From: Albidovulum sp.
GTDB taxonomy: Bacteria > Pseudomonadota > Alphaproteobacteria > Rhodobacterales > Rhodobacteraceae
Length of the DNA: 33,096 bases
Assembly (NCBI GenBank): GCA_015491895.1
Contig: WFVA01000107.1
Span: 1 to 33,096, forward strand
Direction of reading: 5' to 3'
Part shown: positions 3,239-31,370 of the stretch, piece after piece
Layout: each line of letters begins with the position of its first letter
Position numbering within the stretch: the stretch's first letter is position 1
Translations under genes and position numbers: made by a program
The notes under the pieces: model-generated
The model's input: the letters and a program-made list of their open reading frames with translations, nothing else
Told to the model about the DNA's origin: nothing
Databases searched by the model: none

Positions 3239-3606
3239 GCCTCAACATTCTGGCCGTTGACGACAGCCGCACCATGCGTGACATGCTCAATCTGACGCTC
3301 ACGCAGGCCGGTTTCACCACCCATCTCGCCGAGGATGGCCAGGACGGGCTCGAGGTGCTGGAAAGCCTCGATCCCGAGCCCGATGTCATCATCACCGATA
3401 TCAACATGCCGCGGCTCGATGGCTTCGGCTTCATCGAGGCCGTGCGCAGCCGCGACAGGCACCGCAGCGTGCCGATCCTTGTGCTGACGACGGAAAGCGC
3501 GCCCGAACTCAAGCAGCGCGCCCGCGAAACCGGCGCCTCGGGCTGGATCGTCAAGCCCTTCGATCCCGAACGGCTCGTGCGGGCGCTGAAGATGGTTGCC
3601 GGGTGA
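3235..3606 (+). CDS. cheY: CheY-type single-domain response regulator (CheY1)
   Basis: 123 residues, a bare receiver domain with no output domain. The acidic pocket is D9/D10, the phospho-acceptor is D55 (ITDINMPRLDG), and the conserved switch residues are T85 and K107 (VKPF). CheY-P normally binds the flagellar motor switch; where two CheYs exist, one is often a phosphate sink. The ATG overlaps the stop of the STAS gene, and the stop lies 4 bases before cheA, so the three are coupled. Which of the two CheYs in this operon drives the motor cannot be told from sequence. Confidence 0.93.
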   Translation: MSLNILAVDDSRTMRDMLNLTLTQAGFTTHLAEDGQDGLEVLESLDPEPDVIITDINMPRLDGFGFIEAVRSRDRHRSVPILVLTTESAPELKQRARETGASGWIVKPFDPERLVRALKMVAG

Positions 3607-3610
3607 CATC

Positions 3611-5956
3611 ATGAGCATTGAAAACGATCCCATGGCGGAAATCCGGGCCACGTTCTTCATCGAATGCGAAGAACTGCTCGAAGCGCTCCAGGATGGCCTG
3701 CAGGCCATGGAGGAGGGCGGCACCGATGACGAAACCATCAATATCGTGTTCCGGGCGGTGCATTCGATCAAGGGCGGGGCGGGGGCCTTCGGGCTCGAGG
3801 ATCTGGTGCGCTTCGCCCACCGCTTCGAATCCGTGCTCGATGCGGCGCGCTCGCATCAGCTGGAAATCGATGGCGAGGTGCTTTCCGTTCTTTTCCGCGC
3901 CGGCGATATGCTGAACGATCTGGTCAGCGCGGCGCGTGACGGCGAGGCGGTCGATCCATCGCTTACGGAGGAGGCGGGAAAGGCGCTTGATGCTCTGATC
4001 GGCGCGGATGGGCCCGATGGCGATGGGGCCGAAGAGGAGGAGGTGGCGGATTTCGCGCCGATGGCCCTTTCGCTCGATCTCGGGCCTCTGGATGCGGGGG
4101 AAGGCGCGGAGGAGAACGCTGCGGGATCGGATGTTCCGGCCGCGCCTGGCGAGGCCGGTGCGCCCGGCGGGCCCATGGCGGGCCCGGATGGCTCCCCCGT
4201 CTCGGCCGGCACCGGCTTCCGTATCCGCTTCAGGCCCCATTCGGCGCTCTTTGCCAGCGGCAACGAGCCGCTCCACCTGCTGCGCCTGCTCGATGAAATG
4301 GGAACGATGACCACCCTGTGCCGTGCGGAAGATCTCCCGCCGCTTGGCGAGATGGATTGCGAGAAATCCTATCTGCACTGGGATATCTTCCTCGAGACAT
4401 CGGAAGAGGAAAACGCGATACGCGAATTGTTCGATTTCGTGGAGGATGTCTGCGATCTGACGATCTCGCCGCTGACGGGAGAGGACATGGCCGAGCTTGT
4501 CCGCCATGCCGAGGCGATCGCGCGGGAAGAGGTGTCACCGGGCGGAACTGCCGGCGATGGGGCCCTCATGGCTGGTGATGCCCCCGGATCATCCGGCGAG
4601 GTTGCGTCGGGAAAGCCTGAGGCCGAGGGTTCCCCGCCTCCTTCGGCCCCGAAAACACGGAAGGCGGGCGGAAGGAGCGTGGGATCCGGCCGGAATGAGG
4701 GCGGCAGCAAGGCTGCGGGCAAGGGCAAGGCGACGGGCGGCGTCAAGACCAAGCCGACCGTGCGGGTGGATCTGGAGCGGATCGACCGTCTGGTCAATCT
4801 CGTCGGCGAGCTTGTCATCAACCAGGCCATGATCTCGCAGAGTGTGGAAAAGGCGGGGCTGCTCACCAACCCGGAGATAGACAGCGGCCTGAATGAATTC
4901 ATGCAGCTGACGCGCGATATTCAGGACAGCGTGATGATGATCCGCGCCCAGCCGGTCAAATCGCTGTTCCAGCGCATGGCGCGGATCGTTCGTGAAAGTG
5001 CAGCGGCCGTCGGCAAGAACGTGCGCCTGCGCACCGAGGGCGAGGGCACCGAGGTTGACAAGACGGTGATCGAGAACCTGGCCGATCCGCTTACGCACAT
5101 GATCCGCAATGCCGTGGATCATGGCCTCGAATCCCCGGAAGAGAGAGTGGCGGCAGGGAAACCGGCCCAGGGCGTTGTCACCCTTTCGGCCGGGCATCGC
5201 TCGGGCCGGGTTGTCATCACGGTTTCCGATGACGGGGGCGGGATCAACAGGGAGCGGGTTCTCCGGATAGCGATTGACAAGGGGCTGATCCCCGAAAACG
5301 CCGAACTTTCCGACAACGAGATCGACAATCTTCTCTTCCTCCCAGGTTTTTCGACAGCGAACGAGGTCTCCGATCTTTCCGGCCGCGGTGTCGGGATGGA
5401 TGTGGTGCGAAGCGCCATCCAGGCGCTGAGCGGACGCATCACCATCCAGTCCCGCCCCGGCGAGGGCACGACCTTCACCATCAGTCTGCCGCTCACCCTT
5501 GCCGTTCTGGACGGCATGGTCGTGGAAGCCGCCGGTCAGACCCTCGTCGTGCCGCTCAACACCATATCCGAGACGCTGACCCTTGGCGCCCGCGATATCC
5601 GGGTTCTCGGCCCGGAGACCAGGATGGTCCAGATCCGCGATACATTCGTGCAGCTTTTCGATCTGGGCGCGGAGATGGGATACAGGCCCCCCCTCGAGAG
5701 CTTTGCCGGCAAGGTGGTGCTGCTCGTCGCACTGGAGGATGAGAGCCGGGCGGCTCTCGTGATCGATGGCATCGTGGACCAGCGCCAGGTGGTCATCAAG
5801 GGGCTTCAGGATACGTTCGGCCGCGTGCCGGGCGTTGCCGCGGCAACGATCCTTGGGGATGGCAAGATCGCCCTTATTCTGGACCCCGCCGATATCGTTG
5901 CCAATTCCCGCAACAAGGCGCCCAATACGCAGGCGGATCTTTCACTAGCAGGATGA
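3611..5956 (+). CDS. cheA: Chemotaxis histidine kinase CheA
   Basis: 781 residues with full CheA architecture. The Hpt (P1) domain has the phosphorylated H51 in VHSIKGGAG. A long acidic/Gly-Ala linker and a P2-like CheY-binding region (residues ~205-300, with YLHWDIFLET) follow. After a Lys/Gly-rich linker come the P3 dimerisation segment (RIDRLVNLVGELVINQ), the ATPase with N box (MIRNAVDHGLE), G1 (DDGGGI) and the GRGVGMDVV box, and a C-terminal CheW-like P5 domain. ATG at 3611 is chosen over upstream TTG 3596 because it lies just after the cheY1 stop and gives the usual N-terminus. CheA autophosphorylates and passes phosphate to CheY. The next gene, cheW, starts within 6 bases. Confidence 0.95.
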   Translation: MSIENDPMAEIRATFFIECEELLEALQDGLQAMEEGGTDDETINIVFRAVHSIKGGAGAFGLEDLVRFAHRFESVLDAARSHQLEIDGEVLSVLFRAGDMLNDLVSAARDGEAVDPSLTEEAGKALDALIGADGPDGDGAEEEEVADFAPMALSLDLGPLDAGEGAEENAAGSDVPAAPGEAGAPGGPMAGPDGSPVSAGTGFRIRFRPHSALFASGNEPLHLLRLLDEMGTMTTLCRAEDLPPLGEMDCEKSYLHWDIFLETSEEENAIRELFDFVEDVCDLTISPLTGEDMAELVRHAEAIAREEVSPGGTAGDGALMAGDAPGSSGEVASGKPEAEGSPPPSAPKTRKAGGRSVGSGRNEGGSKAAGKGKATGGVKTKPTVRVDLERIDRLVNLVGELVINQAMISQSVEKAGLLTNPEIDSGLNEFMQLTRDIQDSVMMIRAQPVKSLFQRMARIVRESAAAVGKNVRLRTEGEGTEVDKTVIENLADPLTHMIRNAVDHGLESPEERVAAGKPAQGVVTLSAGHRSGRVVITVSDDGGGINRERVLRIAIDKGLIPENAELSDNEIDNLLFLPGFSTANEVSDLSGRGVGMDVVRSAIQALSGRITIQSRPGEGTTFTISLPLTLAVLDGMVVEAAGQTLVVPLNTISETLTLGARDIRVLGPETRMVQIRDTFVQLFDLGAEMGYRPPLESFAGKVVLLVALEDESRAALVIDGIVDQRQVVIKGLQDTFGRVPGVAAATILGDGKIALILDPADIVANSRNKAPNTQADLSLAG

Positions 5957-5961
5957 TCAGG

Positions 5962-6429
5962 ATGACGGATACCGAGGACAAGGCCAAGGCCGATCAGACG
6001 GAGCTGCTCTCCTTTCGGGTGGGTACGCAGGAATATGCGGTCGACATCATGACCGTGCGCGAAATACGCGGCTGGACGAATGCGACCCCGCTTCCGCATG
6101 CGCCGCCCTTTGTGCGAGGCGTGATCAATCTTCGCGGCACCGTTCTCACCATCGTCGATCTTTCCGATCGTCTGGGGATGGGGCCGATCGAATTCAGCGA
6201 GCGCAACGTGATCATCGTTGTCGAGGCCGGCAGGCAGCTTGTCGGGCTCCTCGTGGATGCCGTCTCGGATATTCTGACGGTATCGGCCGAGGATCTGCAG
6301 CCTCCCCCGGAAATGCTGACAGAGGGGCCGAGGACATTCGTCAACGCCCTGACGATCGTTCAGGAGCGCATGGTGCGCATCCTTGATCTTGATGCGGCAT
6401 TGCCCGCGGCGGAAATCGAAGCGGCCTGA
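5962..6429 (+). CDS. cheW: Chemotaxis adaptor CheW
   Basis: 155 residues, a single CheW SH3-like domain that bridges CheA and chemoreceptors. Recognisable segments are LLSFRVGTQEYAVDIMTVREIRG, PFVRGVINLRGTVLTIVDLSDRLG and GLLVDAVSDILTV. The start is placed at ATG 5962, which has AGGA at 5950-5953 with 8-base spacing; an alternative ATG at 5953 overlaps the cheA stop but has no clear SD. The stop is one base before cheR, so translation is coupled. Confidence 0.94.
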   Translation: MTDTEDKAKADQTELLSFRVGTQEYAVDIMTVREIRGWTNATPLPHAPPFVRGVINLRGTVLTIVDLSDRLGMGPIEFSERNVIIVVEAGRQLVGLLVDAVSDILTVSAEDLQPPPEMLTEGPRTFVNALTIVQERMVRILDLDAALPAAEIEAA

Positions 6430-6430
6430 G

Positions 6431-7297
6431 ATGAGTGATATCGCGTCCACCCCCAATCCACGGCAGATGAGCGAAGAGCATTTCCGTTTCATCGCCGATC
6501 TGGCGCACAAGGAGGCCGGGCTGGTTTTCCCTGAGAGCAAGGCTCCGCTCGTGCGCACCAGGCTGAACCGGCGCATCCGGGCCCTGAAGCTGCCCGGTTA
6601 CGATGCCTATTGTGCCCTGCTCAGGAGCCCGGAAGGGGCGCGGGAGCGGCGGATGATGATCTCTTCGCTCACCACCAATGTCTCGAGCTTCTTTCGCGAG
6701 GCGCATCATTTCGATCTCCTGCGCGGCGAGATCCTTCCGCCCCTGCTGGAGGGGGCAAGAAGGGGAGAGCGCCTGCGCCTGTGGTCAGCCGGTTGTTCCT
6801 CCGGTCAGGAGGCCTATTCGATTGCGATGGTGCTCGCCGATCTGGAGCCGGATTATCTGCAGATGGATATCCGTATACTGGCCTCGGACATTGATCTCAA
6901 CGTCATTGAGACAGGGCGGGCGGGCATCTATGACGCAGGTCAGCTGGCGAATGTGCCGGAGGAATACAGGGAGAGATATTTCCAGCCGGCCGAGGACAAC
7001 GGAAAGGAAGCCGTCAGAATCATCGAGCCCCTGCGCCGGATCGTCTGCTTCCGTGAGCTCAATCTCCTCCATGAATGGCCGATGAAGCGGCAGTTCGATG
7101 TGATCTTCTGCCGCAATGTCGTGATCTATTTCGATGCCGAAACCCAGAATTCGCTCTGGCGAAAGTTCGAAAAATACACGGCACCCGGGGGCTGGCTGAT
7201 ACTGGGCCATTCCGAGCGTCTTTCGGAGGATGTCGCCGGGAAATTCGTCGTTGCCGGCCCCACGGCCTATCGCCTTTCACCAACCGAAACAGCATGA
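6431..7297 (+). CDS. cheR: Chemoreceptor glutamate methyltransferase CheR
   Basis: 288 residues. The N-terminal helical domain (ALKLPGYDAYCALLR, then MMISSLTTNVSSFFREAHHFDLL) and the SAM-binding methyltransferase domain (LRLWSAGCSSGQEAYSIAMVL; later DVIFCRNVVIYFD) are both intact, matching CheR length. It methylates receptor glutamates to tune adaptation. It begins one base after the cheW stop. The usual partner methylesterase CheB (and deamidase CheD) are not in the operon; demethylation must be encoded elsewhere or be absent. The next gene, cheY2, follows 16 bases downstream with its own SD (GGAAGAGG). Confidence 0.94.
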   Translation: MSDIASTPNPRQMSEEHFRFIADLAHKEAGLVFPESKAPLVRTRLNRRIRALKLPGYDAYCALLRSPEGARERRMMISSLTTNVSSFFREAHHFDLLRGEILPPLLEGARRGERLRLWSAGCSSGQEAYSIAMVLADLEPDYLQMDIRILASDIDLNVIETGRAGIYDAGQLANVPEEYRERYFQPAEDNGKEAVRIIEPLRRIVCFRELNLLHEWPMKRQFDVIFCRNVVIYFDAETQNSLWRKFEKYTAPGGWLILGHSERLSEDVAGKFVVAGPTAYRLSPTETA

Positions 7298-7313
7298 ACC
7301 GGAAGAGGCAGTC

Positions 7314-7700
7314 ATGGCACTCAGAGATCAATTGCGCATCATGGTCGTGGATGACATGTCCACAAGCCGCGGGCTCATAACCCAGGCGCTGGATGCATTC
7401 GGAATCCGTAATGTGGCAGCGGTGGCTGACGGAAAATCCGCGCTCGAGGCGATTGCGCGCTCTCCGGTGCATCTGGTGATTTCCGATTTCAACATGCCGG
7501 GCATGAGCGGGCTCCAGCTGCTCCAGCATCTGCGCCAGAATGCGGCCACGAAAGGCACCGGTTTCATCCTGATCACGGGGCGGGCAGATCGTGAAACAAT
7601 CGAGACGGGCCGCAGACTCGGCATGAACAACTTCATCAAGAAGCCGTTCACGCCACAGGATCTTCGCGCCTGCATCGAAGCGGTTGTCGGACGGTTGTGA
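7314..7700 (+). CDS. cheY: CheY-type single-domain response regulator (CheY2)
   Basis: 128 residues, a lone receiver domain. Acidic pocket D13/D14, phospho-acceptor D58 (ISDFNMPGMSG), switch T88 and K110 (IKKPF). The start is ATG 7314 behind a GGAAGAGG SD. It is clearly diverged from the other CheY of the operon, as in two-CheY systems where one acts on the motor and the other drains phosphate. Its stop codon shares bases with the start of the following small gene (TGATG), so the two proteins are translationally coupled. Confidence 0.93.
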   Translation: MALRDQLRIMVVDDMSTSRGLITQALDAFGIRNVAAVADGKSALEAIARSPVHLVISDFNMPGMSGLQLLQHLRQNAATKGTGFILITGRADRETIETGRRLGMNNFIKKPFTPQDLRACIEAVVGRL

Positions 7701-10141: not shown

Positions 10142-10975
10142 TCAACCTGAGAGGCCGTGCGGCCCTGTTTTCCGGCTGTTTTGCAGCCGTTTTCCTGCTT
10201 TTTGCCCCGAGGGCGGCGGCGAAGGCGAAGCTGCCGGTGACGTGCCCTTGTGATCTTCCCAGAGAAGGCCGCGATAATCGAAGCCCTCCTCGATCGTGGG
10301 TTTGACGATCCGAAAATAGGGCGAGAGATCGAAATCGCGCGGCGTGAAGAGGGAGTGATGGCGGATGCGCAGCACCTCCTCGCGCATTTTTCGGGAGGCG
10401 CCCTCGGCGAGCTCCGGCAGGATCGGATAGCGCACGCTCTGGAAGGCTTCGGCGATCAGTGTCGAGCAGATGGCGCGGGTGGGATCGCCCGAGCCGAGCT
10501 CGAGCATGCGCCGCCGCCAGCGCTGGGGCACGGGCGGATTGGGCAGGAGGTAGCGCATCAGATCGAACACGTTGCGCAGATCGTAGCTGCGCCCGATGCT
10601 CCGGCGCATATGGGCGATCACCTTGCGGCAATCGGCATCCGCAAGCCCGACGGGGCGGCAGATCCGGGTATTGAGATGTGCATGGCGCGCCAGCGAAACC
10701 GCCTGCACGCCGTTTTCGAGATCGGCTTCGATCAGAACTGCGGCAGGGTCATCGCCCCCCGCATAGAAGGCGGAATGGGACCAGGTGGAATGGGTGAGAT
10801 ACTTGATCGCGGAAGAGATGCGCGAATTGCCCTCGACAAGGAGCACATCGCCCGGCCGCAGCGCAGCTTCGAGGCGATCGAGAGGGATGACGGAAAAGGC
10901 CGTGTAGCCCGGCCTTTCCCTTTCGAGAAAATGCGCGAGCCTGCGCCCGATGGCGGTTGCAACCCTGCTGAACAT
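10142..10975 (-). CDS. YiiX-like permuted papain-fold (NlpC/P60 superfamily) hydrolase
   Basis: 277 residues. The catalytic pieces occur in permuted order: H67 in THSTWSHSAFY, an acidic segment IEADLENGV with E83, then C170 in AICSTLIAEAF. This His-before-Cys order is typical of the YaeF/YiiX permuted papain-fold group, whose members hydrolyse amide or lipid-like bonds, often at the envelope. PGDVLLVEGNSRISSAIKYLTHS is the usual entry to this domain. No signal peptide is clear. The last ~30 residues are a Pro/Lys-rich tail. ATG 10975 has a GGGAGAG SD. It lies 110 bases upstream of rhlE on the same strand. The true substrate is unknown. Confidence 0.75.
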   Translation of the reverse strand: MFSRVATAIGRRLAHFLERERPGYTAFSVIPLDRLEAALRPGDVLLVEGNSRISSAIKYLTHSTWSHSAFYAGGDDPAAVLIEADLENGVQAVSLARHAHLNTRICRPVGLADADCRKVIAHMRRSIGRSYDLRNVFDLMRYLLPNPPVPQRWRRRMLELGSGDPTRAICSTLIAEAFQSVRYPILPELAEGASRKMREEVLRIRHHSLFTPRDFDLSPYFRIVKPTIEEGFDYRGLLWEDHKGTSPAASPSPPPSGQKAGKRLQNSRKTGPHGLSG

Positions 10976-11068: not shown

Positions 11069-12610
11069 TCACTGATCGGCGAGCGCCTTTTCGGCCTGAG
11101 GGGCGAAGGGGGCCTCAGGGGCAAGCGCCAGGGAGCGTTGCAGCGCCTTTCGTGCGCCCGTTTCATCGCCTGCGGCCTTCAGGATCATGCCGAGGCGGAA
11201 GAAGGCCTTTGCATTTTCCGGGTTCTTTTTCGTGAGGCTCTCAAAGATCGCGCGCGCCTCCTCGGTTTGCCCGGCATGGAAGAGTGCCCAGCCGAGCGTA
11301 TCGCGCACCTCATCCATTCCGCCCGAGGCGGCATCGGCCCCGCGCGCCAGCGCCACCGCGCGGGCGGGATCGCGGGGCGTGAGCAGGGCGGCGAGATTGT
11401 TCCGGACAAGCCAGCTTTCGGGGGCGAGCAGGAGGGCCTTCTCGTAAGCGTCTATGGCGTCTTGCGTCTGTCCGCGCCTTTCATGAAGCGTGGCGATCAG
11501 GAGGAGCGTGCCGGCGTTGCGGGGATTGGCGGCGTTGGCCTTGCGGGCATAGGCGAGCGCATCCCCGTGCCGGCCGAGGCGCTGGCTGGCGATGGCGGCG
11601 GCGTGCAGGAGCGCGGGATTGCCGGGCGAAGCTGCGAGGCCCTTCTTGTAGAAGGCAAGCGCCTCTTCGTAGCGGCGCAGCGCGCCCCTCAGGTTGCCCC
11701 GTTCGAAGGCGATCTGCGCGTCACCGGGAAAGGCCGCATCGGCGCGCGCAAGGAGCGCCTCGGCGCTTTCAAAATCCCGCCCGGCCATGGCCATGCGGGC
11801 AAGCTCGATGAAGGGGGCAGGGGATTTCGCGTTTTCAAGCCGGGGGGCAAGGAGGGCGCGCGCCGTCTCCGGCGCGTTCAGTGCGAAATGGCCGCGCGCC
11901 AGCAGCAGGGCGACGCTTTCCGGCGCGCGGGGATCGCCTTCCCAATGCCCGAGCAGGGCGAGCGCATCTTCAGGCCGGTTCTGCGCGAGATAAAGGCGCG
12001 CGAGATCGAGCTTCACGCCGAGATAGCCCGGGGGGGTGCCGCGCAGGCCGGCCTCGAAATGGGAGATCGCGGCCGCCACATCTCCGCGGGATTCGGCGAT
12101 AAGGCCTAAATTCTGATGCGCGCGCCGATCTTCGGGATCAAGCGCAAGGGCCTTGCGAAAATGCGCCTCCGCCTCCCCGATCCGCCCGATCGCCTTCAGC
12201 ACCAGGGCCATGTTGGTATGGGCGGAGGGGCTTTCGGGATCAAGCGCGAGGGCGGCCCTGAAGGCGGCGAGGCTCTTTTCGATTTCCCCGAGTTTCGCAT
12301 GGGCGATGCCCAGAAGCTCCTGGACCACCGGGCCATCGCGCCCTTCGGCTATTTCCGCGCGCAGCCGGGCGATGGCGGCATCCGGCCGGCCCGCCTCGAT
12401 CAGGCCGAGGATTTCGCGCATCGGCGCGGATTTCGGCGGTGCGATCTGCAGGAACTGATCACCGGTTTCGGGATCGAGACTTTCTGGATCATAAGTGGCC
12501 GCGGTGAGGGGCGAGGCCCCGAAAAGCGGCACCAGCAGCGCGGCCAGAAGCGCAAGGGCGCCGGGGCGCAGGACGAAAAAGGAAGGGGCGGGGCCCCTTC
12601 CTTTCCTCAT
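11069..12610 (-). CDS. Secreted or membrane-anchored TPR-repeat protein
   Basis: About 513 residues from ATG 12610. The N-terminus is basic and then hydrophobic (LALLAALLVPLFGASPLTAA), a signal peptide or anchor. The rest is a run of tetratricopeptide repeats (for example ALALDPESPSAHTNMALVLKAIGRIGEAEAHFRKAL, quoted here as ALALDPESPSAHTNMALVLK), giving a protein-binding solenoid probably in the periplasm. An upstream GTG at 12637 overlaps the stop of the VWA gene (GTGA) and would add nine residues; either way the two genes are coupled. TPR proteins often accompany PEP-CTERM-type secretion loci, so a role in handling the neighbouring sorted protein is possible but unproven. Confidence 0.82.
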   Translation of the reverse strand: MRKGRGPAPSFFVLRPGALALLAALLVPLFGASPLTAATYDPESLDPETGDQFLQIAPPKSAPMREILGLIEAGRPDAAIARLRAEIAEGRDGPVVQELLGIAHAKLGEIEKSLAAFRAALALDPESPSAHTNMALVLKAIGRIGEAEAHFRKALALDPEDRRAHQNLGLIAESRGDVAAAISHFEAGLRGTPPGYLGVKLDLARLYLAQNRPEDALALLGHWEGDPRAPESVALLLARGHFALNAPETARALLAPRLENAKSPAPFIELARMAMAGRDFESAEALLARADAAFPGDAQIAFERGNLRGALRRYEEALAFYKKGLAASPGNPALLHAAAIASQRLGRHGDALAYARKANAANPRNAGTLLLIATLHERRGQTQDAIDAYEKALLLAPESWLVRNNLAALLTPRDPARAVALARGADAASGGMDEVRDTLGWALFHAGQTEEARAIFESLTKKNPENAKAFFRLGMILKAAGDETGARKALQRSLALAPEAPFAPQAEKALADQ

Positions 12611-12633
12611 GTCCCTTGCGCGATTGGCGCGGA

Positions 12634-13683
12634 TCACTTCTTGCGGCGGCGCAGGAAGGCCCCGCCGCCCAGAAGCGCGCCGAGCAGGAGCGGCAGCGAG
12701 GCCGGCACCGGAACCGGCGCCGGGCCGCCGCGCACCTTGAAGCTGTCGCTCTCGGTAGCGACGATGCCGCCATCCACCAGCGCGTTGATATCGAAGCTGC
12801 AGCTTCCCGGCGTGGTGCCGGTGAAGGTCACGTCGAAGGTGAAATCGCGATCCACATCGCGGGTGAAGCTGCCGTTGTGGCTGGCGGGATCAAAGCTCAC
12901 GTCCACGCAATCGGCGCCAGCGCCCACGGCCAGCGAAACGGTGCTGTAGCTGGCGAAGGTGGCGTCGATCGCGTCCAGAATTGCGGTGGTGACGTTGCCC
13001 GTCCCGCTGCCAAGATCACCGAGAGTGCCGCCGGTGGCCGTGGTGATGGCCGTGGCCTGGCCGGTGCTGTCGAGCGAGCCGGCATCAAGCGCGTGTACGG
13101 TGATGTTTTCGCCAAGAAGCGCGTTGATCGCATCGGCCTCGGTCACGCCGTTGCTCGGATCATGGCCCGGCGCATCGCCGAACCACACCACGATGCGGGT
13201 GGAGTCGGGGCGCCATTCCATGCCTGTCGCCACCTGATCAAGGGCGTAGAGATTGGCCTCGGGGAAATCGCCGCCGCCGCTGGCCGACCAGCTGTCGATC
13301 GCCGCCTGCACGGCGGTGTCATCGGCAGTGAGATCGGTAAGCTCGCGATAGGTGAAGGCATCGGTGGTGTCGCGGTAGCCGCCCACCCCCCATTGCACAT
13401 CGCCAAGGCCGGAGGTGGCCGTGAGGATCGCGCCCGCGGCATTGCGCACATCGGCAATCTCACCGCCCATCGAGCCGGTTTCATCGGCGAGGAACACGAT
13501 ATCGACGATCGCCGATGTCGGCCCGCCGGCGCTCACCGTGACGGTTTTCTGAATGGTGACGCTTTCGCCCACGTCAAGCGTATCGGAATAGGAAACGGGA
13601 TCGATCGAATCCGCGCTGGCCATTCCGGCTGCGAGCATGAAGAGCGGCGCGCTCCAGCCCAGGATTCCGGATTTCATCTGCAT
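12634..13683 (-). CDS. Secreted VWA-domain protein with VPLPA-CTERM sorting signal
   Basis: 349 residues (343 or so if the second Met, at 13677, is used). Residues ~1-24 are a signal peptide ending ASA. A von Willebrand A domain follows, with an MIDAS-like DETGS at residues 67-71 (DxTxS, Thr in the first Ser place) and a later VVWFGDAPGHD strand. A beta-rich region with two Cys comes next. The C-terminus reads PVPVPASLPLLLGALLGG followed by Arg/Lys: a VPLPA-type motif, hydrophobic helix and basic end, the three-part signal processed by exosortase D-type enzymes (known for the family). The product is probably surface-anchored or released and binds a metal-dependent ligand. No exosortase gene is in the window. 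Three TTAAC elements lie upstream. Confidence 0.85.
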   Translation of the reverse strand: MQMKSGILGWSAPLFMLAAGMASADSIDPVSYSDTLDVGESVTIQKTVTVSAGGPTSAIVDIVFLADETGSMGGEIADVRNAAGAILTATSGLGDVQWGVGGYRDTTDAFTYRELTDLTADDTAVQAAIDSWSASGGGDFPEANLYALDQVATGMEWRPDSTRIVVWFGDAPGHDPSNGVTEADAINALLGENITVHALDAGSLDSTGQATAITTATGGTLGDLGSGTGNVTTAILDAIDATFASYSTVSLAVGAGADCVDVSFDPASHNGSFTRDVDRDFTFDVTFTGTTPGSCSFDINALVDGGIVATESDSFKVRGGPAPVPVPASLPLLLGALLGGGAFLRRRKK

Positions 13684-14017
13684 TTCAAATATACTCCCAC
13701 CTTAATGAACTCCCGCCGCTCCGGCTTTCCTGTTGAAATGATATTTGCGTCAAGCAGGGTCGGAAATCGAAGCAGGACCAAACAGGGGCAGGTTAACACA
13801 ACATTAACTTCTTTTTAACTTTATTCGTGCGCAATAGCGCACATTTCCGGCCAGAAATGCCATTCTTTTCTGGCTTGGAAGCGAACTATTCACGTATTGC
13901 GGGAAAGTATCAATCAGACGGCGAGTTCGGCTCGCCCAATGCACCGCGCCTTCAGCCCCGGCGCCGGCCATAGCGAATCTGCTGCAACGCTACCGCATCC
14001 CCGCATTCGGGCAGAGA
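13684..14017. other. Intergenic region upstream of the VWA gene
   Basis: About 330 bases between the VWA gene and prfC, both on the minus strand. I find no gene. The half near the VWA gene is AT-rich and carries the TTAAC array listed separately. A small GGCGAG/CTCGCC hairpin at 13920-13936 may be part of the prfC 3' end, but it lacks a T tract. Confidence 0.6.
13793..13819 (-). promoter_or_regulatory. Three TTAAC elements at 11-bp spacing, candidate CtrA sites
   Basis: TTAAC begins at 13793, 13804 and 13815, so TTAA-N7-TTAA occurs twice in overlapping register. TTAA-N7-TTAA is the recognised full CtrA box of alphaproteobacteria. The array is 110-136 bases upstream of the VWA start codon and on one helical face. 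Binding by CtrA is inferred. Confidence 0.6.
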
Positions 14018-15625
14018 TCACACCATCATTTCCTTGGTCTTGCTCAGCGTGAGCTCGGGATAATCGCGCTCGATCCTGTCGATATCCCACTGCAGGCGGG
14101 TGAGATAGACGAGATCGCCGTCATTGTCATAGGCCACATGGCCCTTGTTGGCGCTGACGAAGCGATTGACCACATCCTCGGGGCCGGTGATCCAGCGCGC
14201 GGAGGTGAATTGCGAGGGCTCGAAGCGCACCGGCAGGCCGTATTCGAGCTCGATCCGGCTGGCCAGCACCTCGAATTGCAGCGCCCCCACCACGCCCACG
14301 ATATGGCCCGAGCCGATCATCGGCTTGAACACCTTCGCCGCGCCCTCCTCGGCGAACTGCATCAGCGCCTTGTCGAGATGCTTGGCCTTCATCGGATCGC
14401 CGGCGCGCACGCTCTGCAGAAGCTCGGGCGCGAAGGAGGGGATGCCGGTGACGCGCAGCGCCTCGCCCTCGGTCAGCGTATCGCCGATGCGCAGCTGGCC
14501 GTGGTTGGGGATGCCGATGATATCACCCGCCCAGGCCTCCTCGGCGAGTTCGCGGTCCGACGCGAGGAAGAGCACCGGATTGGAGACCGCCATCGGTTTT
14601 TTCGAACGCACATGCATCAGCTTCATGCCGCGTTTGAAATGGCCCGAGGCGAGGCGCAGGAAGGCCACGCGATCGCGGTGTTTCGGGTCCATGTTGGCCT
14701 GCACCTTGAAGACGAAACCCGTCACCTTCGCCTCCGCCGGGTGGATCTGGCGCGGCTCGGCGCGCTGGGGCTGGGGCGGGGGGGCGTATTGTGCGATGCC
14801 GCGCATCAGCTCCTTCACCCCGAAGCTGTTGATCGCCGAGCCGAACCAGATCGGCGTCAGCGTGCCTTCGTGGAGCGCCTGCATGTCCAGGGGCGGCAGC
14901 AGTTCGCGCGCCATCTCCACCTCCTCGCGCAGCTGCTCCAGAAGATGCGCGGGCACGTGCTCTTCAAGGCGTGGGTCATCCAGCCCCTCGAGGCGGATGC
15001 TCTCGGCCACCACGTTGCGATCGGCGCGGTCCATCAGTTCGAGGCGGCCATTGAGCATGTCGTAACAGCCGATGAAATCGCGCCCCATGCCGATCGGCCA
15101 GCTTGCGGGGGTGACGTCGATCGCCAGGCTCTGCTGGATTTCATCGATGATGTCGAAGGTTTCGCGCGCCTCGCGATCCATCTTGTTGCAGAAGGTGAGG
15201 ATCGGCAGATCGCGCAGACGGCAGACCTCGAAGAGCTTCTGCGTCTGGCTTTCCACGCCCTTGGCGCCGTCAATCACCATGATGGCGGCATCCACCGCGG
15301 TGAGGGTGCGGTAGGTATCCTCGGAGAAATCCGAGTGGCCGGGGGTATCGACGAGATTGAAGCGGTGGCCATCGAAATCGAAGCTCATGGCCGAAGCGGA
15401 GACGGAAATTCCCCGCTCCTGCTCCATCTTCATGAAATCCGAGCGCGTGCGCCGCGCCTCGCCCTTGGCGCGCACCTGGCCGGCCATCTGGATCGCGCCG
15501 CCGTAAAGCAGGAATTTCTCGGTCAGCGTGGTTTTCCCCGCATCCGGGTGCGAGATGATGGCGAATGTGCGCCGGCGGGCGATTTCGGGCGGCAGGGCGG
15601 GCTGGTTGGTGGCGGTATCTGGCAT
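14018..15625 (-). CDS. prfC: Peptide chain release factor 3
   Basis: 535 residues from ATG 15625, the usual RF3 length. It is a translational GTPase that recycles RF1/RF2 from ribosomes after termination. The G1 loop is HPDAGKTT, the switch region contains MEQERGISV, G3 is DTPGHSDFSEDT and G4 is NKMD; RF3-specific segments include GGAIQMAGQVRAK and RFEPSQFTSARWI near the C-terminus. The reading frame is open further upstream to a TTG at 15661, but the added residues look non-conserved. No strong SD is visible. It diverges from the SnoaL-type gene across ~118 bases that include an SOS-like box. Confidence 0.95.
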   Translation of the reverse strand: MPDTATNQPALPPEIARRRTFAIISHPDAGKTTLTEKFLLYGGAIQMAGQVRAKGEARRTRSDFMKMEQERGISVSASAMSFDFDGHRFNLVDTPGHSDFSEDTYRTLTAVDAAIMVIDGAKGVESQTQKLFEVCRLRDLPILTFCNKMDREARETFDIIDEIQQSLAIDVTPASWPIGMGRDFIGCYDMLNGRLELMDRADRNVVAESIRLEGLDDPRLEEHVPAHLLEQLREEVEMARELLPPLDMQALHEGTLTPIWFGSAINSFGVKELMRGIAQYAPPPQPQRAEPRQIHPAEAKVTGFVFKVQANMDPKHRDRVAFLRLASGHFKRGMKLMHVRSKKPMAVSNPVLFLASDRELAEEAWAGDIIGIPNHGQLRIGDTLTEGEALRVTGIPSFAPELLQSVRAGDPMKAKHLDKALMQFAEEGAAKVFKPMIGSGHIVGVVGALQFEVLASRIELEYGLPVRFEPSQFTSARWITGPEDVVNRFVSANKGHVAYDNDGDLVYLTRLQWDIDRIERDYPELTLSKTKEMMV

Positions 15626-15711
15626 GAGGGCGCGTATAGGCGGGGATTTCCGCCGAGGCAAGCCAAAGGGGAGCCCGGGGGGTGGATCGAATCAGTTTGC
15701 CGCGCCAATGT

Positions 15712-19830: not shown

Positions 19831-19884
19831 AAGAAACATTTTGAAACAACCTTCAGTTGTGATTTCATTGTTTTCGCCCGAGGG

Positions 19885-19899
19885 TTAATCCTGGATTAA
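19885..19899 (+). promoter_or_regulatory. Perfect CtrA-type box upstream of cckA
   Basis: TTAATCCTGGATTAA at 19885-19899 is TTAA-N7-TTAA and also a perfect 7+1+7 palindrome. It lies 65 bases upstream of the cckA start. The spacing is exactly that of full CtrA sites; control of cckA by CtrA would make a feedback loop. Inference from motif only. Confidence 0.6.
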
Positions 19900-29818: not shown

Positions 29819-30122
29819 TGCTTCGGCCTTTTCGGGAATGTCCGGGGGGCAATAGCCTGCGGGAGGGAGAATTGCCAGCCCCTTTTATCAGAGGCCTGTG
29901 TGGATTGCCGATCCGTGTTGGAAACGCACCGAGCGGAAACATTCATCGGCGAGTACCCGTGTATTGTTTCGATATTGGAAACCCAGGGGAACGCGCGCGC
30001 CCGGGGCATTTGACAGAAAGGCCGTTAACCTTCACAATGAGGGCGGTATTTCCGTGTTTGTCAATTATCCGTTCATTCCGGTTTTTTCATGTAAAACATG
30101 CTTTCACGAGGGGATTTGAACC
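29819..30122. other. Divergent promoter region, typA and VPLPA-CTERM gene
   Basis: No gene is seen. A candidate sigma70 promoter for the plus-strand gene is listed separately. A small CATGT-AAA-ACATG dyad lies at 30088-30100, in the leader of that gene. Confidence 0.55.
30010..30038 (+). promoter_or_regulatory. Candidate sigma70 promoter
   Basis: TTGACA (30010-30015), 17 bases, then CACAAT (30033-30038). The -35 is perfect and the -10 matches at four of six bases. It would give a leader of about 75-80 bases for the gene at 30123. Confidence 0.5.
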
Positions 30123-30674
30123 ATGCGCCTTTCCGCTGCCGCTGCCGCCCTGGCAATGTCAATAACCGCAAGCGCCGCCCAGGCGGTGCCTGTCATCTGG
30201 ACGTTCGATGATCTCCTGCTCGTGCCGGATCCTGCGATTTCGGATCCGGGCGTGGGGGCGGCCCTTGGATACGGGGCCTTCATCTATGATGCCGACATCA
30301 CCGATTTCAGCGCCATTTCCCTCACCACCACGCCGGTGAGCGCCGGCGATCCGATGGGCGAGATCACCTATGATACATCTGTCGGCATCTTCGCCAACAC
30401 GCTCGTCTTTTCAAGTTCCGCCGATCTCACCCGTCAGATCGTGCTGGTGCTCGATGCGGATCTGACCAATGCCGGCGGCGTGGTGACGGCCGGTTTCGGC
30501 GAGGAGAGCGTGGATGGCGATGCGAGCCTCGTGCGGTTTTCCGCATTTGCGACCCTCAGCGGCGTGCCGATCCCGATCAGCCCCGTGCCGCTGCCCGCGG
30601 GCCTGCCGCTTCTGGCCGTTGCGCTTGGCGGGCTCGGGCTCGCGGCGCGGCGCAGGAAGCAGAGCGCCGGGTGA
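30123..30674 (+). CDS. Small secreted VPLPA-CTERM protein
   Basis: 183 residues, no recognised domain. Residues 1-21 are a signal peptide (ending ASAAQA). The mature part is a Ser/Thr/Asp/Gly-rich beta-type region resembling many PEP-CTERM proteins. The C-terminus is VPLPAGLPLLAVALGGLGLAA then RRRK: VPLPA motif, hydrophobic helix, basic tail. By family knowledge this is a sorting signal cut by an XrtD-type exosortase, sending the protein to the envelope or outside. The function is unknown. SD GAGGGGA precedes the ATG. The core is unlike that of its neighbour at 30831, though the tails are nearly the same. Confidence 0.8.
   Translation: MRLSAAAAALAMSITASAAQAVPVIWTFDDLLLVPDPAISDPGVGAALGYGAFIYDADITDFSAISLTTTPVSAGDPMGEITYDTSVGIFANTLVFSSSADLTRQIVLVLDADLTNAGGVVTAGFGEESVDGDASLVRFSAFATLSGVPIPISPVPLPAGLPLLAVALGGLGLAARRRKQSAG
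30585..30616 (+). repeat. 32-base direct repeat, copy 1 (VPLPA tail)
   Basis: Bases 30585-30616 are identical to 31290-31321. Both code for the VPLPAGLPLL core of the sorting tail in the same frame. Distance between copies is 705 bases. Confidence 0.85.
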
Positions 30675-30830: not shown

Positions 30831-31370
30831 ATGAAGATTTCTGTGATTGCGGCAGGGTTTGCCGCAGCAATGGCGCTGGGTGCGCCGGCGAGCGCCGCGC
30901 TGATCGAGTTCGATGTGAGCGGGCTTTACATGTCGAAGGATTCGGGGGAGGTCTATGCGCCAACCGGCACTTTCCGCTGGGACAATGCCTCCTTTACGAT
31001 CAGCGATGTGAACGTGACATCGCCGTTTTCGACCTATACGAGCGGCCTCTATGACAGCACCGCTGAGGAGTTTACCCTTTTCGGCAGCGGGTCATCCGGG
31101 GCGACGGAGCTTGCGATCAGCGTGTTCGGCACGTGGTTCAACGATCTTGAATCCGGCGCGCCGGGCGATACTTTCTTTTTCGGCGCCGATCCGCGAGAGA
31201 CTCTCGCAGGGAGTCCGTCGATACTTGGTTTTGGAATCGATCCCACGCTTTACGCCAGGATCCTGCCCGATCCGGGTGGCCCGGCGCCGGTGCCGCTGCC
31301 CGCGGGCCTGCCGCTTCTGGCAGCCGCGCTCGGCGGGCTTGCGTTCTTCAGGAAACGCGGGAAGGCCTGA
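30831..31370 (+). CDS. Small secreted VPLPA-CTERM protein
   Basis: 179 residues. A signal peptide covers residues 1-22 (ALGAPASA). The mature part starts ALIEFDVSGLYMSKDSGEVY and is a beta-rich, Gly/Ser/Thr-rich region without Cys. I recognise no enzyme motif. The C-terminus PVPLPAGLPLLAAALGGLAF then RKRGKA is a VPLPA-CTERM signal. AGAGGA at 30821-30826 gives a good SD. It follows the other VPLPA-CTERM gene by 156 bases in the same direction, with the dyad at 30750 between them, so each may have its own promoter. It ends before a strong bidirectional terminator. Confidence 0.8.
   Translation: MKISVIAAGFAAAMALGAPASAALIEFDVSGLYMSKDSGEVYAPTGTFRWDNASFTISDVNVTSPFSTYTSGLYDSTAEEFTLFGSGSSGATELAISVFGTWFNDLESGAPGDTFFFGADPRETLAGSPSILGFGIDPTLYARILPDPGGPAPVPLPAGLPLLAAALGGLAFFRKRGKA
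31290..31321 (+). repeat. 32-base direct repeat, copy 2 (VPLPA tail)
   Basis: Identical to 30585-30616, coding for the sorting-tail core of the second small VPLPA-CTERM protein. Identity drops directly outside the repeat, but the tail continues to be similar as protein. Confidence 0.85.

Follow-up and report, generated by a model that had tools for sequence, protein, structure and literature searches.

CtrA, which governs the cell cycle and motility, is a response regulator of the OmpR/PhoB class, whose half-sites are bound head-to-tail, one helical turn apart. The pho boxes of PhoB are likewise 11-bp tandem repeats read head-to-tail by a regulator of the OmpR/PhoB family. In Caulobacter, activating CtrA sites are located near -35, as described in the available text of two reports (PMC6180460 and PMC4287350). 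At the Caulobacter pilA promoter, additional CtrA sites upstream have a repressing and delaying effect; activity was lowest in a pilA construct that carried the activating site three times at close spacing, and three copies at the native positions behaved differently, without giving the lowest activity (PMC11264516, in its available portion). The predicted CtrA targets of Dinoroseobacter shibae include ctrA, cckA, divL, and luxR2, and the luxR2 promoter carries two perfect CtrA sites, according to the available part of the corresponding paper (PMC4046655). The terms "von Willebrand" and "VPLPA" are absent from the main text of that paper, and the open-licence PMC literature yielded nothing linking CtrA with von Willebrand proteins in Rhodobacter, with PEP-CTERM or with exosortase, and nothing on CtrA half-sites arranged as TTAAC at 11 bp.

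Here we analyze a candidate CtrA-type site whose three-part form is uncommon but recurs; the site precedes a poorly known, putatively exported VWA-TPR pair and, as judged from its sequence, is probably functional. It is located in the window, i.e. the whole stretch of 33,096 nucleotides of Albidovulum sp. under analysis. Four genomes of the genus were compared, the window's own genome (G000) and three others (G001 to G003).

The phased TTAAC array and the genes around it

Three TTAAC words are present on the forward strand between prfC and the VWA gene, at positions 13793-13797, 13804-13808, and 13815-13819, with a spacing of exactly 11 bp. They form two overlapping exact TTAA-N7-TTAA boxes that agree with the TTAA-N7-TTAA(C) consensus, as the first-pass annotation had described. 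Read in the sense of the VWA gene, the array is GTTAA-N6-GTTAA-N6-GTTAACC, with the TTAA words at -135, -124, and -113 from the ATG, and it ends 109 bp upstream of this codon. Its gene-proximal element is the palindrome GTTAAC, so that the TTAA-N7-TTAAC box also reads toward the VWA gene.

Table 1 Coordinates of the array, of the neighboring and relay genes, and of the other promoter elements discussed in the text
Feature	Position	Strand	Basis
Triple-phased TTAAC array, three half-sites, proposed CtrA-binding site	13793..13819	.	pattern search and shuffles
Gene-proximal full box in gene sense, TTAATGTTGTGTTAAC	13792..13807	-	pattern search
prfC-VWA intergenic region, 334 bp, with the array and presumed promoter	13684..14017	.	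ORF coordinates
Putatively exported VWA-domain protein, 349 aa	12634..13683	-	PF00092, 30.7 bits (cut-off 23.8)
TPR-repeat protein, conserved partner, directly downstream of VWA	11069..12637	-	listed ORF overlaps VWA stop codon
prfC, peptide chain release factor 3, upstream neighbor in the same orientation	14018..15661	-	NF001964, 710.5 bits
Second full CtrA-type box, preceding the CckA-like gene	19884..19899	.	pattern search
CckA-like hybrid histidine kinase (PAS, HisKA, HATPase_c, receiver), ORF of 1000 aa	19947..22949	+	NF046020
Exosortase/EPS divergent-promoter elements	L122 14659-14706; L120 13273; L121 1780		

The unusual part is the arrangement and not the word. TTAAC alone occurs in the window about as often as expected (8 times for 7.92). 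TTAACN6TTAAC has two matches there, for none in 100 dinucleotide shuffles. The exact triple was found once in the 2,788,544 bases searched of the own genome. When the intergenic region was submitted to 20,000 dinucleotide shuffles, a single TTAA-N7-TTAA pair appeared 151 times and the triple never, so the array is not a chance product by this test. The improbability claimed at first for high-GC DNA is therefore upheld by the shuffles but overstated in its argument, as the intergenic stretch has a GC content of only 52%, compared with 64% for the window.

The translated VWA protein has a signal-like N terminus, a DETGSMG motif, and a C-terminal sorting tail of the PEP-CTERM/VPLPA type. Beyond its VWA domain, it passes the threshold of the PEP-CTERM model TIGR02595 (20.3 bits, cut-off 16) and stays under the curated one of the VPLPA-CTERM model TIGR03370 (17.1 bits, cut-off 25.35), the type to which the first-pass annotation had assigned it. 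A cognate-type exosortase (TIGR04152, exosort_VPLPA) is encoded in the own genome, with 705 bits, and such an exosortase is present in three of the four genus genomes. The gene order is shared with relatives: a TPR homolog directly follows the VWA gene in G002 (53%), G001 (50%), and Litoreibacter roseus (41%), and in the same three genomes prfC is found upstream in the same orientation, with an extra ORF in between in L. roseus. Another homolog, in genome G038, has prfC downstream in the opposite direction and a weak TPR match divergently upstream. The TPR gene of the window is followed by a gene for a C92 papain-like (YaeF/YiiX) protein (10142-10975, reverse strand), and an unscanned ORF is similarly placed in G001 (L043:8082-8849). 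The putative VWA-TPR operon may hold this C92 papain-like gene, or the similarly placed ORF, as a third member. Farther away, the window contains a chemotaxis cluster (3596-7700) with cheA, cheW, cheR, and a CheY-like receiver.

CtrA relay genes, their boxes and the preferred spacing

CtrA was identified in all four genus genomes with the NF045991 model (429.9-433.5 bits, cut-off 350), and a ChpT-type HPTransfase in three of the four, including the own genome. The window itself encodes a CckA-like kinase, whose top NCBIfam match is the CckA model NF046020, at 527.5 bits, below its full-length cut-off of 1000. The second full CtrA-type box of the window precedes this gene. An exact box also occurs before cckA in G001 (L026), whose protein is 71% identical to that of the window, and in G002 a box (L042:229) lies just past a 1031-aa receiver-bearing frame, the assignment to cckA being made from position in G002 and from an identical site in G003. 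Exact boxes are located before luxR-luxI in the four genus genomes (L009, L032, L033, and L028), with a short ORF beginning between box and luxR in the own genome, and before a divL-like PAS gene beside regB in the three genus genomes read (L004, L021, and L022). A box with one mismatch, GTAA-N7-TTAAC, is shared by the four ctrA promoters, at -66 to -68. These boxes run into TTAACCAT in three cases and into TTAACCAA in one; for Caulobacter, TTAACCAT has been reported as the ungapped variant in the available text of PMC6180460.

The 7-bp spacer is strongly preferred in the genus. Of 22 matches to TTAA-N0..20-TTAAC in the own genome, 14 have a spacer of seven. When distinct places are tallied by hand, against an expectation of 1 in 21, N7 accounts for 10/17 in G000 (p = 8.6e-10), 11/44 in G001 (p = 5.1e-6), 6/17 in G002 (p = 9.1e-5), and 9/16 in G003 (p = 1.1e-8), and without the array itself the G000 share is still 8/15 (p = 1.3e-7). 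An unbiased 400-kb sample of G002 with 66 TTAA words contained only one pair at 11 bp and two at 21 bp, which counts against the CtrA reading; a G000 sample, biased since its contigs were chosen for known sites, contained ten TTAA pairs at 11 bp. With mechanical gene calls, exact boxes were found in 1/208 upstream regions of G002 and in 7/178 of the biased G000 sample, and the best box had one mismatch in 9/208 and 11/178, respectively. A reversed-pattern control is commoner than the pattern itself (92 against 22 in the own genome, 26 against 14 in G001), and for the triple it matched in dozens of family genomes, which is unfavorable at face value. We did not use this control as a yardstick, since it is not a matched one: AATT greatly outnumbers TTAA, with 612 occurrences against 71 in a 379,618-bp sample of G000.

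A second frequent spacing of TTAA words is 21 bp, i.e. two turns, as seen at G000:C7:16226-16251, G003:C5:2201-2226, and G001:C7:14601-14626. The 21-bp-spaced sites share the conserved element TTAACACTA(C/G)CTAACAAATGGTTAAC, the middle of which resembles a degenerate half-site. Among the matches listed, the sequence TTAAATGGTTAAC occurs once in each genus genome (G000:C61:12483-12495, G001:C61:10278-10290, G002:C18:53761-53773, and G003:C98:2669-2681).

Boxes in relatives and recurrence of the triple form

Homologs of the VWA protein are rare, with 9 of the 394 family genomes at E <= 1e-40. Measured from the VWA ATG, exact boxes start at -135 and -124 in the own genome and at -127 in G002, and a one-mismatch box starts at -121 in G001, where the VWA upstream region has no exact N7 box. 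The G001 box is preceded by ATGG, as are the divL-like boxes. In L. roseus, an exact box is located at -47. A further exact TTAA-N7-TTAA box of this species was observed between the VWA and TPR genes (L044:7030-7044). Over the nine homologs, the best box is exact in three and has one mismatch in six; for each of these six, between 4.6% and 28% of 500 shuffles did as well. The nine best-box scores together beat dinucleotide shuffles in a Fisher test that counts related genomes as independent (p = 2.9e-5, and 2.3e-4 without G000). A tenth homolog outside this panel is split into two fragments in G129; the one fragment that includes upstream DNA lacks any TTAA in the 400 bp before the gene. G003 is uninformative on conservation because neither prfC nor VWA was found in its 450-contig assembly. 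The exact triple is present at the VWA gene in G000 only, among the nine homologs. The refuting case named by the first-pass annotation, absence of the array in close relatives, thus applies by half: the exact triple is missing there, but a CtrA-type box is located at nearly the same place in both readable congeners, one with a mismatch.

The triple form itself, TTAA-N7-TTAA-N7-TTAAC, was found in 63 of the 394 family genomes. Among the 30 triple loci listed, 15 belong to three kinds: nine to an MshEN-domain glycosyltransferase (L127, L129, L134, L143, L146, L147, L150, L151, and L153, from nine different genomes), five to the interval between regB and the divL-like PAS gene (L131, L139, L145, L149, and L154), and one to luxR-luxI. 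For a further 14, no match to any of the 16 probe proteins was obtained, and L125 holds only a prfC end, which is distant. The carA gene is found in the same locus in eight of the nine listed glycosyltransferase cases. Within the genus, the luxR promoter carries an exact triple in G001, a triple with one mismatch in G000, and one with two mismatches in G002. Since triples recur in the family, the one before the VWA gene is a case of a recurrent arrangement; the glycosyltransferase and divL-like triples are 13-56 bp from mechanically called starts, compared with 109 bp at the VWA gene, a difference that counts against the CtrA reading of the latter.

The first-pass annotation had also tied surface-protein display in general to CtrA, and this broader link is not borne out. 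Exact boxes are missing from the 350 bp upstream of all six other VPLPA-CTERM genes found in the own genome, so that a common CtrA box for all VPLPA-CTERM genes is not supported; one of the six has a single GTTAAC upstream. A CtrA box at the divergent exosortase/EPS promoter was rejected as too weak, its elements being partial and unconserved: the box is exact in G001 and has one mismatch in G000, and G002 shows a single TTAA. The window also encodes two tandem VPLPA-CTERM proteins (30123-30674 and 30831-31370), with 29.6 and 28.1 bits, over the cut-off. Upstream of the gene at 30123-30674, by about 98 bp, is a lone GTTAAC (30024-30029).

Proposed regulation, alternatives and comparison with known systems

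We consider it likely that the response regulator CtrA binds the array and thereby controls the VWA-TPR pair, a putative operon. This reading is supported because CtrA, ChpT, and a CckA-like kinase are encoded, the N7 spacing is preferred, and boxes are present at cckA, luxR, and the divL-like gene. As a predicted CtrA target, the array has in its favor the in silico evidence of sequence, spacing, company, relay genes, and congener boxes, but the general surface-display tie proposed along with it is not supported. That the target is a strong one, as the first-pass annotation had put it, goes beyond what sequence is able to show, and the additional CtrA sites of Caulobacter pilA act to repress and delay. 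In the proposed mechanism, phosphate would pass from the CckA-like kinase to ChpT and on to CtrA, and CtrA~P would bind TTAA half-sites spaced by one helical turn of 11 bp. On three phased half-sites, a dimer could choose between two registers, or three DNA-binding domains could line up side by side. The most likely role of the array would be to determine when, or above which threshold, VWA-TPR is transcribed, in concert with quorum-sensing and further CtrA genes. CtrA occupancy, three-subunit binding, and the operon structure of VWA-TPR are what we infer for this promoter.

CtrA might instead mainly repress or delay the VWA-TPR genes, the array acting as a roadblock or a multi-site brake downstream of, or beside, the true promoter; we hold this to be possible though rather unlikely. 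A promoter-consensus scan near the array gave no clear -10, and the sole promoter-like match of the region (13913-13885) is upstream of the array in gene sense, which would place the array inside the transcript and favor repression, but this match is weak, at 9/12. The Caulobacter pilA promoter can be read both ways, as its upstream CtrA sites repress or delay and three close copies gave the lowest activity, whereas three copies at native positions behaved differently (PMC11264516, available portion). The location of activating Caulobacter CtrA sites near -35, given in the available text of PMC6180460 and PMC4287350, argues against repression, and activation appears somewhat more likely than repression as the sign of VWA-TPR regulation.

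The other two alternatives dispense with CtrA. That the real user is a different TTAA-reading regulator, either an OmpR/PhoB-family response regulator or a factor in SciP-type competition, seems improbable: related regulators do exist in the own genome, as testified by 28 matches to the CtrA model with just one over the cut-off, and TTAACAT motifs have been reported at Caulobacter SciP ChIP peaks (PMC4287350, available text), but the N7 spacing and the company of ctrA, cckA, luxR, and divL-like genes fit the published CtrA predictions. A functionless cluster of TTAA words, arisen by chance in a relatively AT-rich upstream region, is very improbable. One-mismatch boxes are indeed frequent in shuffles of the AT-richer homologous upstream regions, and the triple is absent at the VWA gene of congeners; on the other hand, no triple arose in the 20,000 shuffles, N7 is strongly preferred in all four genus genomes, and two congeners keep boxes at nearly the same position although their flanks have diverged.

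Under the favored reading of the array as a CtrA site, the unstudied exported VWA-TPR pair would be a likely, predicted addition to the CtrA regulon, through a variant architecture and not a new kind of system. The recurrence of triples before the same few genes makes it possible to ask, in testable form, how more than two half-sites are read by CtrA. We put forward, only tentatively, that three helically phased half-sites may constitute a distinct class of Rhodobacteraceae CtrA promoters, in which three stacked CtrA DNA-binding domains would make the response to CtrA~P steeper, or delay it, relative to a single box; the class would be concentrated on a few signaling and surface genes (the divL-like kinase, the MshEN glycosyltransferase, luxR, and the VWA-TPR pair). 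If this were true, CtrA timing or threshold would be dialed simply at the sequence level, by how many phased half-sites a promoter contains.

Compared with the pho boxes of PhoB, the array has the same organization in 11-bp tandem repeats, and its half-site word differs. The closest likeness in sequence is to the full CtrA site of Caulobacter and Rhodobacterales, TTAA-N7-TTAA(C), with which the array has in common the half-sites, the 7-bp spacer, and a place before the start codon, as well as the accompanying relay genes and boxes at cckA, luxR, and the divL-like gene, in line with the predictions for D. shibae (PMC4046655, available part). The array, as a candidate CtrA site, differs by its three phased half-sites, the middle one being common to both boxes, and by its distance of 109 bp from the start codon. 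As with the array, CtrA sites are multiple at the Caulobacter pilA promoter and lie upstream of a gene whose product is exported, but these are four separated, degenerate, and irregularly spaced sites (PMC11264516, available portion), in contrast to three consensus half-sites in strict 11-bp phase. The luxR2 promoter of D. shibae, compared by its description in the available part of PMC4046655, also combines two boxes in one promoter, and the likeness is extended by the luxR promoter of the genus member G001, which is an exact triple array; luxR2 is a quorum-sensing gene, whereas the array precedes the gene of a putatively exported VWA protein.
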